DNA of 64,000 bases, taken from Sandaracinus sp. GTDB taxonomy: Bacteria; Myxococcota_A; Polyangia; Polyangiales; Houyiibacteriaceae. Positions within the stretch are counted from its first letter, which is position 1, and every line of letters begins with the position of its first letter. The notes under the pieces are model-generated. The model made no database searches, was not told the DNA's origin, and saw only the letters and a list, made by a program, of their open reading frames with translations. This document shows positions 16,771 to 21,374 of the stretch, in pieces. A program made the translations under genes and the position numbers. The stretch is taken from positions 1 to 64,000 of the forward strand of contig PABA01000002.1 of the NCBI GenBank assembly GCA_002699025.1, given 5' to 3'.

Positions 16771-18501
16771 TCAGAGGCGGCGAGCGAGGAAGCCGAGGGG
16801 TGTCTTCTCGAGGGCCTCGAGCCCTTCGCTCAGGCGGCGGGCCGCGCGGCGGACGAAGCCGCCCGGGGGGCGCGGGTGGCCGTTCGTTCGCGGGCGGCTG
16901 GCGCGCTGGCCGTTCGCTCGGGGGCGACCCGCAGAATGGCCGTTCGTGTGCGGCCCGTGCGTGTGCGGCCCGTTCGCCGGGCCGCCCCGGCGGCTGCTCC
17001 CGAGGTGGGATTCGCGCGGCGGCGCCTCGCCCGGCGCGAAGGCCGGCGTGCGCTTCGGCACGAAGAGCTCGTTGAAGTACTCGACGAGGAGCTTCTCCGA
17101 GAGCGGCCGCGGCAGGACGTTCAGGATCTCGTTGATGAGCGCCGTCTCCTCGGGCAGGTCCACCTCGCCGCCGCCCATGCCCGCGAGGCTCAGCACCTGC
17201 TCGAGGCTCGCCCCGTCGATCTCGCCGTCGTCGAGCGTGTCGACGACCTTCTGGACGAGCGGCCGGACGCCGACGCCCGGCCGCTTCTTCGCTTCGGCCA
17301 CGCACTCCTTGAGCTTCTCGAGGAAGTCGTCCTCCCAGCCGCAGTTCGCCGGGTTCACGCTCACGTGCAGGTTCTCCCGGTGTCCGCCGTAGCCGAGCTG
17401 CGGCTGGATGTACCAGCCGCGCGCCTTCATCAGGTCGGCGAGAACGAAGACGCTGAAGTCGTCGGCGGTGAAGCTGAAGAGCGTCGTCTGCGGGGCCGCC
17501 ATGAGGCGGAGCCCGTCGATGGCCTCGACCCCGGCCGCGAGCTTCTTCGTCGTCTCCCGCATGCGCGCGACGAGCTCGCCGTAGCCCGCCTCACCGAGGT
17601 ACTGCAGGACGGCCCAGGTGGCCGCGATGGGGCCGCCGCTCCGCGTGCTCTGCACGGTGGTGTTGATGACCGTGTAGCCGGTCCAGCTCGAGCAGGCGTA
17701 GAGCGCATGCCGCCGCACGGCCTTGTCGCGGAAGAGCACGACCGAGCTGCCCTTCGGGCAGAAGCCGTACTTGTGAAGATCCATGGAGATGCTCGTCACG
17801 CCCGGCACGCGGAAGTCGAAGGGCGGCACGGTCTCGCCGTTCTTCTCCATCACGCCGAGCACGAACGCGCCGATGCAGCCGTCGACGTGGAAGAGCAGCC
17901 CCTTCTCCTCGGCGAGCGCGCCGATGGCCTCGATGGGGTCCGCCACGCCGTGCGCGTAGGCGACGGCCGAGCCGACGAGCAGGATGGTCTCCTCGTCGAT
18001 GGCCGCGCGCATGGCCCCGACGTCGGCCTCGAAGGTCTCCGGGTCCGCGGGGGTGACCACGGTCTCCACGCCGAGGTAGTGGGCGGCCTTGTGGAAGCAG
18101 GCGTGCGCCGTCTCCGGGAGCACCATCTTCGGGCGCGCGATCTCCGGCCGGTGGCGCCGGGCCCAGTCGCGGGCCGCCTTCACGGCGAGCATCACGGACT
18201 CGGTGCCGCCGCTCGTGAAGAGCCCGACGGCGCCCTCGGGCGCGTGGAGGTGTTCGGCCGCGATGCCGAGGATCTCGTTCTCCATGCGGAGCAGGCTCGG
18301 GAAGACCGTCGGGTCGAGGGCGTTCAGCTCGAGGTGCTTCGCGAAGGCGTCCCGGCCGAGGGCCTCCGCCTCCGCGCCGGCGAGGTAGACGTAGCCGAAG
18401 ACGCGACCGTCGTGCCACGGCAGGTCGTGCGCCGTGTAGCGCGCGAGCGCCTCGAAGATGGCCTCGCGGGCGACGCCGCGCTCGGGGATGGGACTGCTCA
18501 T
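16771..18501 (-). CDS. PLP-dependent lyase/decarboxylase, sphingosine-1-phosphate-lyase-like
   Basis: A 576-residue fold-type I PLP enzyme of the group II decarboxylase/S1P-lyase superfamily. The PLP lysine is Lys244 in SMDLHKYGFCPKGSS, Asp207 (HVDGCIGAF) would hold the ring nitrogen, and TSGGTESVMLAVKAARD is the phosphate-side loop. HKYGFCPKGSSVVLFRDK followed by TRSGGPIAATWAVLQYLGE is closest to S1P lyases, which split phosphorylated long-chain bases to a fatty aldehyde and phosphoethanolamine; amino-acid decarboxylases are the alternative. The C-terminus adds about 110 residues with a His/Asn/Gly/Pro/Arg-rich repeat stretch (HGPHTNGH type) and a basic helix. The ATG is served by a good promoter overlapped by a palindrome. 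Confidence 0.82.
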   Translation of the reverse strand: MSSPIPERGVAREAIFEALARYTAHDLPWHDGRVFGYVYLAGAEAEALGRDAFAKHLELNALDPTVFPSLLRMENEILGIAAEHLHAPEGAVGLFTSGGTESVMLAVKAARDWARRHRPEIARPKMVLPETAHACFHKAAHYLGVETVVTPADPETFEADVGAMRAAIDEETILLVGSAVAYAHGVADPIEAIGALAEEKGLLFHVDGCIGAFVLGVMEKNGETVPPFDFRVPGVTSISMDLHKYGFCPKGSSVVLFRDKAVRRHALYACSSWTGYTVINTTVQSTRSGGPIAATWAVLQYLGEAGYGELVARMRETTKKLAAGVEAIDGLRLMAAPQTTLFSFTADDFSVFVLADLMKARGWYIQPQLGYGGHRENLHVSVNPANCGWEDDFLEKLKECVAEAKKRPGVGVRPLVQKVVDTLDDGEIDGASLEQVLSLAGMGGGEVDLPEETALINEILNVLPRPLSEKLLVEYFNELFVPKRTPAFAPGEAPPRESHLGSSRRGGPANGPHTHGPHTNGHSAGRPRANGQRASRPRTNGHPRPPGGFVRRAARRLSEGLEALEKTPLGFLARRL

Positions 18502-18518: not shown

Positions 18519-18547
18519 CTTCTAGCAGCGGTGGCACTCGGTGCCAA
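18519..18547 (-). promoter_or_regulatory. Promoter of the S1P-lyase-like gene
   Basis: Minus strand TTGGCA (18547-18542), 17-base spacer, TAGAAG (18524-18519) with an extended TGC before it. The start codon is 17 bases downstream of the -10. A palindromic operator covers the -35. Confidence 0.58.
18532..18546. promoter_or_regulatory. Palindromic operator, copy 1
   Basis: Perfect 15-base palindrome TGGCAC-TCG-GTGCCA covering the -35 and first half of the spacer of the S1P-lyase-like promoter. A 14/15 copy lies in the SDR promoter at 19609-19623. Size and symmetry suit a TetR-, LacI- or GntR-type dimer. Confidence 0.6.
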
Positions 18548-18645
18548 GTGGCACGGGCGGTCACGCGAGCGCTCCGGCGTCTCCGGCCGAGGCATCTCCG
18601 CTCGGTGGTCGTGCGTGTTCGGTCGGCGGTGCGCGGTCGGCGGGC

Positions 18646-18671
18646 TCAGTCCGTGAGCTCAGTCCGTGAGG
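18646..18671. repeat. 13-base direct repeat at the 3' end of the SDR gene
   Basis: Two adjacent copies of CTCAGTCCGTGAG; one contains the SDR stop codon. Probably a small slippage duplication. Confidence 0.6.
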
Positions 18672-19528
18672 CCCACCCACTCCATGCTGCGGCGCCAGGT
18701 CTCGGCCGAGAGCGCTTCGTCGGTCGCGGGCGGGTAGGGCTCGGCCCGGGCGCACTCGTCGTAGTAGTGGCCCGTCTCCCCTTCGAGCTCCGGCGCCGTC
18801 GCGCAGTAGAGGCTCGTCTGCGCCCCCTCCTCGTTGGAGATCATGCGCATCTTCATGAGCGGTCGGATCGGCCAGGGCACCTTCCGCCACACGTCCGAGG
18901 CCACGACGCCCGGGTGGAGCGAGTAGGTCGTCACGCCCGTGCCCTCGAGGCGCCGCCCGAGCTCGCGCGCGAAGAAGATGTTCGCCGCCTTCGACTCGGC
19001 GTACTCGGTGAAGCCCGTGAAGCTCCGGGTCGGCTCCCGCTTGCGGTCCAGGTGCACCGTGCGCGCCTTGCGGTGTCCCTTGCTCGCGACGATCACCACC
19101 CGCGCGGGCGCCGACGCCTTCAGCTTCTCGAGCAGGAGGTGCACGAGCAGGAAGTGACCGAGGTGGTTCACGCCCCAGGCGAGCTCGAAGCCCTCCTTCG
19201 TGAGCCCCTTCTGCCCGGCGAGGCCGGCGTTCGCGACGAGCACGTGGAGCGGGAGGTCCCGCGCGAGGAACGCCTCCGCGCAGGCGCGCACGGAGGCGAA
19301 GTCGCCGAGGTCGAGCGGCAGGAGCTCGACGGCCTCGTTCCCGGTCTCGCGGCGGATGCGATCGAGGGCGGGCTGCGTCCGCTCCCGCGAGCGGCAGGCG
19401 AGGAAGACGTGGGCCCCGGCGCGCGCGAGCTCCAGCGCCGTCACCTCCCCGATGCCCGTGTTCGCCCCCGTCACCATGCAGACCTTCCCGCGCATGTCGG
19501 GGACCTGGACCTTCGGCATCGTTCCCAT
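18659..19528 (-). CDS. Short-chain dehydrogenase/reductase (retinol-dehydrogenase-like)
   Basis: A 289-residue classical SDR. It has the cofactor loop TGANTGIG, NAGLAG after strand four, the catalytic Ser in VVIVASKGHR, and the active-site pair in YAESK. NADP(H) use is suggested by the CRSRER segment after strand two. Overall it resembles the retinol-dehydrogenase/WW-oxidoreductase group acting on hydrophobic alcohols, aldehydes or ketones. The ATG at 19528 was chosen because GGAGGAAG lies just upstream; an ATG at 19549 would add seven acidic residues. It lies downstream of a promoter whose spacer holds the same palindrome as the S1P-lyase-like promoter, so the two are probably co-regulated. 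Confidence 0.87.
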   Translation of the reverse strand: MGTMPKVQVPDMRGKVCMVTGANTGIGEVTALELARAGAHVFLACRSRERTQPALDRIRRETGNEAVELLPLDLGDFASVRACAEAFLARDLPLHVLVANAGLAGQKGLTKEGFELAWGVNHLGHFLLVHLLLEKLKASAPARVVIVASKGHRKARTVHLDRKREPTRSFTGFTEYAESKAANIFFARELGRRLEGTGVTTYSLHPGVVASDVWRKVPWPIRPLMKMRMISNEEGAQTSLYCATAPELEGETGHYYDECARAEPYPPATDEALSAETWRRSMEWVGLTD

Positions 19529-19600
19529 CGCTTCTTCCTCCGGCTCCATCGTCGGGCGAGGCCGCGGCGCGCTACACGCTGGCCCGCCTCCCGGATGCGC

Positions 19601-19629
19601 GCAATAACTGTCACCGAGTGCCAGCGCAA
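19601..19629 (-). promoter_or_regulatory. Promoter of the SDR gene
   Basis: Minus strand TTGCGC (19629-19624), 17-base spacer, TATTGC (19606-19601). The palindrome at 19609-19623 fills the spacer, so a bound protein would block polymerase. Confidence 0.55.
19609..19623. promoter_or_regulatory. Palindromic operator, copy 2
   Basis: TGTCACCGAGTGCCA, 14 of 15 bases identical to the reverse complement of the perfect palindrome at 18532-18546. It lies wholly within the SDR promoter spacer and 18 bases from the start of the flavoprotein ORF on the other strand, so that gene may also be affected. Confidence 0.58.
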
Positions 19630-19640
19630 GCCATGCCAGC

Positions 19641-21374
19641 GTGTTCCCCGTGAGCCGATCCCGCCGACCTTCGCGCAGCCGACCTTCGCGCAGCCGACCT
19701 TCGCGCAGCCGACCTTCGCGCAGCCGAGCTTCGCGCAGCCGACCTTCTCACGATGGCTTCGCCGTCCGCGCCCTCGGCGCCCTCCTCCTCTCCGCCGCCC
19801 TCGCGGGCCTCGGGTGCGGCGGCGGCGACGCCGCCCCGCCCGTCGACGAGGGCGAGCCCACCCACCAGAGCTTCGACCGCGGCGTCCTCTGCACCCCGGA
19901 GCGCCTCCTCCGGCCGGAGACGGTGGAGGAGGTCCAGGCCGCCGTCCGCTGGGCCGCCGAGCGGAACCTCCGCGTGAAGGCCGTCTCCTCGGCCGCCTCG
20001 CACAGCGAGAACGCCATCATCTGCGCCGACGAGGGCGCCATCCAGCTCAGCCTCGTCGCCATGGACGCCATCGTGGGCATCGACGAGGAGGCCATGCAGA
20101 TCACCGTGGAGCCCGCGGCGCAGATGGGCGCCATCGGGGACGCGCTCCACGAGGCCGGCCTCGGCGTGCGCAACACCATCCCGCTTCGCGATCTGACGGC
20201 CGCCGGCGCCATCGCCACCGGCGCGCACCACACGAGCCTCCGCTTCCCCTCGGGCGTCCACGACATGGTCGTCGGGCTCTCGCTCGTCGACGGCCGCGGG
20301 GAGCTCCAGCGCCTCGAGGGCGAGGAGGCGCGCGGGGCCGCCGCCCACCTCGGGCGCCTGGGCGTCGTCGTGGCCGTCACCTTCCAGGCCGAGCCCCAGT
20401 TCAAGACGCGCCACGCGATCACCAGCGGCTCGGACGAGGGGCTCGAGGACCGCATCCTCGCGATGGCCCGGGAGCACGACTACGCGAGCTTCAGCTGGTG
20501 GCCGGGCGAGGGCCGCTGGGTGCTCCGCCAGCACGACATCGTCCCCGCCGACACGCCTGGAGAGGCCTACTCGGTCGGCTGGGTCTCGACGGCCGGCGAC
20601 CAGCGCCTCCAGGCCGCGCTCGCCCACCGGGCGAACCGCGATCCGGAGGGGGAGGGGACGCTCTGCGACGTACAGGCGCTCCGGGCCGAGGCGACGGAGC
20701 TCGTCCACGAGGAGGCGGGCGAGCCGGTCGAGGGGCAGGCCGTGGGCTTCTCCCATCGGATGTTCTCGAGCACCTGCGAGGGGCTCGCCTGCCCCTGGGA
20801 GCACCTGAAGATCTTCAACCCGGAGGTCGCCATCCCGGTCGAGGAGCTGCCGCGTTGGATGCGCCGCGTGCGCGAGATCGTCGCCGCGCGCCCCGCCTGC
20901 TTCCCGCTCAACGGCCTCGTCATCCGCTTCTCGGCGGCGAGCGAGAGCTGGCTGGGCATGAACGCCGGCCAGGACGTCGCCTACGTCGAGCTCCACGTCG
21001 TGCGGCACCCGGACGAAGGCGCCTTCGAGCACTTCGCCGACGTCCACGACGAGCTCCACCAGATGTCGCTCCTCGAGTTCGAGGCGCGGCCGCACTGGGG
21101 CAAGAACTACGGCGCGACCTTCCTCGGCCTCGACTACCCGGCCCTCTACCCGGAGTGGGAGCGCTTCGAGGCGCTCCGGGCCCGCCTCGACCCGGACGGA
21201 CGCTTCGAGAACGCCTTCTTCCGGCGGGCCCTCGGCCTCGAGCCGGCGCCCCGGCCGCCCGGCTGCGCCGTGGAGCGCGACTGCTTCTGCCGCGACGACG
21301 CCGACTGCGGGCCGGGCCTCGTCTGCCGGCCGGGCGCCGTGGTGGAGGCGGCGCGCGTCTGTCGCCCGGAGTGA
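19641..21374 (+). CDS. Lipoprotein FAD-linked oxidase (sugar-1,4-lactone oxidase-like)
   Basis: About 577 residues. The N-terminus is odd: a GTG start leads into a Ser-Arg-Ser-Arg-Pro repeat (about residues 8-36, encoded by a 15-bp tandem repeat) before a lipoprotein signal ending in LAGLGC. The body is a VAO-type flavoprotein: FAD-binding part with VKAVSSAASHSENA and DLTAAGAIATGAHHTSL, and an ALO-type C-terminal part ending in PLYPEWERFEALRARLDPDG. Relatives oxidise aldonolactones or alditols with O2. The tail (CAVERDCFCRDDADCGPGL) is a small Cys-rich module. No start codon lies between the repeat and the hydrophobic segment, so the repeat is probably translated. Likely outer-membrane anchored and exported. 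Confidence 0.75.
   Translation: MFPVSRSRRPSRSRPSRSRPSRSRPSRSRASRSRPSHDGFAVRALGALLLSAALAGLGCGGGDAAPPVDEGEPTHQSFDRGVLCTPERLLRPETVEEVQAAVRWAAERNLRVKAVSSAASHSENAIICADEGAIQLSLVAMDAIVGIDEEAMQITVEPAAQMGAIGDALHEAGLGVRNTIPLRDLTAAGAIATGAHHTSLRFPSGVHDMVVGLSLVDGRGELQRLEGEEARGAAAHLGRLGVVVAVTFQAEPQFKTRHAITSGSDEGLEDRILAMAREHDYASFSWWPGEGRWVLRQHDIVPADTPGEAYSVGWVSTAGDQRLQAALAHRANRDPEGEGTLCDVQALRAEATELVHEEAGEPVEGQAVGFSHRMFSSTCEGLACPWEHLKIFNPEVAIPVEELPRWMRRVREIVAARPACFPLNGLVIRFSAASESWLGMNAGQDVAYVELHVVRHPDEGAFEHFADVHDELHQMSLLEFEARPHWGKNYGATFLGLDYPALYPEWERFEALRARLDPDGRFENAFFRRALGLEPAPRPPGCAVERDCFCRDDADCGPGLVCRPGAVVEAARVCRPE
19664..19753 (+). repeat. 15-bp tandem repeat in a signal-peptide N-region
   Basis: Five copies of CCGACCTTCGCGCAG (one with a single change) followed by a partial copy. 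It encodes the Ser-Arg-Pro-Ser-Arg repeat at the start of the FAD-linked oxidase. Confidence 0.9.

Follow-up and report, generated by a model that had tools for sequence, protein, structure and literature searches.

A palindrome upstream of an S1P-lyase-like gene is a predicted operator of an MftR-type TetR repressor in Sandaracinus sp. and other Myxococcota

A palindrome in front of a gene for an S1P-lyase-like enzyme was analyzed in a stretch of 64,000 nucleotides from Sandaracinus sp. (the window). It very probably represents the operator of an MftR-type TetR repressor, which would control the lyase, a lyase paralog, a creatininase-like enzyme and, probably, the region of an SDR gene and a FAD-linked oxidase gene. 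Comparison between genomes showed the predicted operator, its conservation, its link to TetR genes and the putative members of the regulon. Thereby, the palindrome of a single window led to a defined regulon, for which a candidate regulator, a consensus operator and a few predicted targets are now available. In addition, a large subfamily of S1P-lyase-like proteins from Myxococcota, Desulfobacterota and sphingomonads was set apart from the canonical S1P lyases, and its conserved partner should help to find the substrate.

The features are compiled in Table 1. Both copies of the palindrome, O1 with 0 mismatches and O2 with 1 mismatch, lie exactly where the original prediction had placed them, and, as it had claimed, the window contains no third one with up to 1 mismatch. 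The promoter hexamers that had been described for the lyase and the SDR gene were also read from the sequence. For the lyase, on the minus strand, TTGGCA (18547-18542) is separated by a 17-bp spacer from TAGAAG (18524-18519). For the SDR gene, TTGCGC (19629-19624) is followed after 17 bp by TATTGC (19606-19601), and the spacer is filled by the palindrome. O2 is located between two divergent genes, i.e., the SDR gene (start 19549, minus strand) and the FAD-linked lactone-oxidase-like gene (start 19641, plus strand). This arrangement had been missed, as had the degenerate half-operator next to O1.

Table 1. Coordinates of the predicted operators, the promoter and the genes. Positions without a contig refer to the window; C49 and C60 belong to the same genome (G000).
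Feature	Position	Strand	Basis and remarks
O1, predicted primary operator, perfect palindrome TGGCACTCGGTGCCA	18532..18546	-	overlaps the lyase -35; conserved upstream of orthologs
Degenerate tandem half-operator TGGCACGGGCGGTCA	18549..18563	-	17 bp from O1; 3 mismatches to consensus
O2, putative second operator TGTCACCGAGTGCCA, 1 mismatch	19609..19623	-	SDR promoter spacer, divergent SDR/oxidase intergenic region
Putative lyase promoter TTGGCA-17-TAGAAG	18519..18547	-	sequence; -35 TTGACA overlap general among homologous operators
S1P-lyase-like PLP enzyme, 576 aa, divergent subfamily	16771..18501	-	Pfam PF00282
SDR oxidoreductase, 296 aa, possible regulon member	18659..19549	-	Pfam PF00106, NCBIfam PRK06197-like
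FAD-linked lactone-oxidase-like gene, alternative or additional O2 target	19641..21374	+	Pfam PF04030, PF01565
Closest TetR ortholog (G000)	C49:103804-104376		E 8e-75
TetR paralog (G000)	C60:9471-10040		tandem sites 9405, 9422 directly upstream

The palindromes could be chance sequences in a GC-rich genome, and the search of the whole genome that the original prediction had proposed was at first sight in line with this. With the bare pattern TGGCACnnnGTGCCA it revealed no enrichment and was uninformative, i.e., 15 near-copies with up to 1 mismatch were found in the 9.24 Mb genome versus 15 for the reversed-pattern control. In contrast, the conserved form TGRCACYNRGTGYCA was enriched, with 17 matches with up to 1 mismatch versus 6 for the control (exact matches: 3 versus 0), and with 27 versus 7 over 58 genomes. 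The comparison of upstream regions in relatives, which had also been proposed, gave a positive result for the lyase. The unrefined motif, i.e., the motif of the original prediction tested before any refinement, was present with up to 1 mismatch between -400 and +60 at 3 of 29 lyase loci from other genomes, while 0.02 were expected (P ~2e-6). These three loci (L022, L023, and L025) belong to two families of the order and have the site at -38, -68, and -76, and their copies then served to define TGRCACYNRGTGYCA. Four more lyases (L017, with two copies, L018, L019, and L020) have the exact form in their upstream regions, at a distance of about 650-700 bp. In all four cases it precedes a TetR gene, which directly precedes the lyase, and at L022 a TetR gene lies directly 3' of the lyase. 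Because orthologous lyases and tetR-lyase operons of many genera, also from other families, share the palindrome in their upstream regions, it is more than a chance sequence, and a chance origin is extremely improbable. The palindrome in front of the lyase is predicted to be a genuine regulatory site that many Myxococcota have in common.

The association with TetR genes was quantified with 80 lyase loci, which were collected independently by protein from named genomes. The exact operator was found within 900 bp at 17 of the 20 loci with a linked TetR of this type, versus 4 of the 60 loci without (Fisher 6e-11); when five previously used genomes were left out, the numbers were 14 of 17 and 2 of 58. 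The exact motif was absent at three TetR-linked lyases (L175, L178, and L240). The operator occurs before tetR-lyase as well as before lyase-tetR, and at L170 a site is present before both genes. In addition, a profile was built from five TetRs linked to operator-bearing lyases, which had strong matches in 11 of 58 genomes. The exact motif was present in 8 of these 11 genomes versus 6 of the 47 genomes without the TetR (P 2e-4). The total numbers of motif matches were 21 and 6, respectively, the latter being the control level (7 over all genomes); half of the 21 matches came from the genome G044 alone, mostly from inside coding sequence, and thus the count per genome is safer. In G044, a single contig of 10.33 Mb, nine exact TGGCACYNRGTGCCA palindromes (L119, L120, L122-L128) were seen outside the tetR-lyase operon; most of them fall into predicted coding sequence, and they frequently have AT-rich flanks (like GAAAn...nTTTC). 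The 10 exact copies of TGGCACnnnGTGCCA versus 11 one-mismatch copies represent a strong excess of exact ones in this genome.

It is very unlikely that a regulator of another family binds the palindromes and that the association with TetR is an incidental clustering of genes. The four motif-bearing lyase loci without a linked TetR would fit such a regulator, but among them are G008 and G015, which have the TetR gene at another site in the genome. Moreover, the motif lies in the promoter of the TetR gene itself or its operon in several architectures (L017-L020, L170, L177, L188, L196, L204, L208, L213, L218, and G000 C60), and the operator core is identical to the one published for MftR. Because the motif tracks the linked TetR, the regulator is probably an MftR-related TetR. 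At three further loci (L021, L028, and L029) the lyase ortholog lies directly downstream of unrelated TetR types and has no operator motif, which points to a repeated exchange of the regulator at this enzyme.

The original prediction had stated that no regulator gene lies beside the two genes. This is true for the window, and the orthologous TetR is encoded on another contig, C49. The C49 protein clusters with the lyase-linked TetRs (support 96/94) and is most likely the regulator, with the C60 paralog as alternative. A search of the C49 tetR locus revealed no operator within it. Both proteins have the TetR_N HTH domain PF00440 (E 2e-18 for C49 and 4e-14 for C60), and the TetRs carry PF17754, i.e., TetR_C_14, the C-terminal domain of MftR. 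On C60 (L136, 4711-7132), the paralog is found near a ferredoxin-reductase-like gene, followed by a fatty-acid-desaturase-like gene (desaturase named by eye).

MftR is a TetR-family repressor of mycofactocin biosynthesis in Mycobacterium; its operator has the core T-N2-GGCA-N5-TGCC-N2-A, and it is released by long-chain acyl-CoAs (PMC8728441). The palindrome of the window, T-GGCA-CTCGG-TGCC-A, has the same GGCA-N5-TGCC core with the same spacing. The combination of TetR_N with the MftR C-terminal domain is also shared, and in both cases the operator is located in the promoter of the genes under control. However, while TIGR03968 (MftR) was the best NCBIfam model, the scores of 87.5, 88.4, 98.2, and 100.5 bits were far below the equivalog cut-off of 224.9, and the predicted targets are S1P-lyase-like and creatininase-like enzymes. 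The mycofactocin radical-SAM maturase TIGR03962 was over the cut-off in none of the 58 genomes, and thus the mycofactocin pathway was rejected as context. Judged from these comparisons, the candidate regulator works like MftR, but is not MftR itself. The dimeric repressor that had been proposed thus gained support and a class for the lyase, i.e., an MftR-type TetR whose gene shares an operon with the lyase gene in many relatives.

The consensus operator derived from the conserved copies is TTGRCACYNRGTGYCA, which overlaps a -35 element TTGACA. Among 30 exact operators, 25 have a T before the palindrome, 22 an A at position 3, and 28 a C at the symmetric position 13, and thus the left half reads TTGACAC. 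We read this asymmetry as a -35 TTGACA that is superposed on the predicted operator, and the weaker TTGGCA of the window accounts for the perfect symmetry of its palindrome. At the homologous operators, matches to the -10 TATAAT at spacers of 16-17 were barely above other offsets, so that the lyase -10 is without statistical support. Of 29 exact operators, 10 have a second copy with up to 3 mismatches on the upstream side at a distance of exactly 17 bp, versus a background of 0.9% per offset, and in other genomes the second copy is located at 22-24 bp instead. The tandem spacing would fit two dimers per promoter.

The proposed mechanism is that a bound TetR dimer would cover the -35 element of the lyase promoter and thereby block RNA polymerase, and that a second dimer would probably occupy the tandem half-site. 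A ligand would release the repressor, and by analogy with MftR this may be an acyl-CoA or a related lipid. From the operator position we infer repression by occlusion of RNA polymerase, not activation, and we likewise infer the identity of the effector ligand and the control of the SDR gene.

The shared control of the SDR gene stands on different ground than that of the lyase, i.e., on the proximity of the two sites and a 14/15 match in this genome only. None of the 29 other SDR loci had a site of up to 1 mismatch in the upstream region, and FAD-oxidase orthologs at E <= 1e-40 were not found in 57 relatives. Both genes are placed outside the predicted conserved core of the regulon. It is rather unlikely, though to be reckoned with, that O1 is a real TetR operator, as predicted, and O2 is a chance near-match, with the SDR gene not belonging to the regulon. 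The negative result for the other SDR loci would agree with this, as would the mismatch of O2, which falls on an otherwise nearly invariant base, and the regulon core elsewhere, which is TetR-lyase-creatininase. On the other hand, O2 lies exactly in the intergenic divergent promoter, and the probability that a site with up to 1 mismatch occurs by chance within 1.1 kb of O1 is ~0.003. Because such a close neighborhood is unlikely by chance, control of the SDR or the oxidase gene via O2, specific to this genome, was kept as probable. At the start of the oxidase frame, a 15-bp unit (CCGACCTTCGCGCAG) is repeated head to tail about five times, with one variant (window 19675-19750), and the repeats encode an Arg/Ser-rich stretch.

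Exact or 1-mismatch operators also precede the second lyase paralog (C193:107531) and the gene for a creatininase-like amidohydrolase (C5:98550). The latter has an exact operator at C5:98516, with the ATG 20 bp downstream. In G044, L188, L208, and L213, the gene immediately 3' of the lyase encodes a creatininase homolog, and in G008 the creatininase ortholog, which is not linked to the lyase, has a 1-mismatch operator at -50. The adjacency and the operators of its own speak for TetR, lyase and creatininase as the conserved core.

The original prediction had proposed a pathway in which the lyase cleaves phosphorylated long-chain bases to an aldehyde, which the SDR could reduce. The closest solved relatives of the lyase are indeed S1P lyases, the best being 5k1r (E 5e-82). 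With BPSS2021 (5k1r), human SGPL1 (4q6r) and StSPL (3mad) it shares the PLP fold-type-I group II decarboxylase family. The PLP-binding residues of 5k1r are G126, T127, H159, D233, C235, H270, K271, and S313 (PMC5234717); the contacts G, T, H, D, C, H, and K are aligned and conserved in the window enzyme, whereas the position of S313 is a T, and S or T in the orthologs. The substrate loop is different. The solved enzymes and the homologs L031-L045 of the same order have a motif like GG[IL]YxSPTxAGSRPG, whereas a sequence like W[TS]GYxxxNxTxQS[TS][KR]SGGP takes its place in the window protein, in the paralog and in every operator-bearing ortholog examined. Both lyase copies of G000 (E <= 1e-60) are of this divergent type. 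The pathway from S1P via an aldehyde to the SDR was not supported: the enzyme is without the canonical GG[IL]YxSP, and the conserved regulon partner is the creatininase-like amidohydrolase, not the SDR. Literature searches for S1P lyase with TetR or with creatininase found no papers.

Tentatively, a lipid-sensing MftR-like repressor may control an undescribed catabolic module, widespread in Myxococcota, with a substrate other than S1P. Equally tentatively, this module would combine a hydrolase of the creatininase-like (or M81 or amidase) type with the divergent S1P-lyase-like enzyme. In G008 and G015, the place of the creatininase 3' of the lyase is taken by a gene that was judged to be M81-like by eye. 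Amide-hydrolase types were also seen to recur beside the lyase at L182 (5650-7176), L130 (1947-3554), and L188 (4922-5833), the amidase-like and M81-like types named by eye and the creatininase-like type by homology, hinting at an amide-containing lyase substrate.
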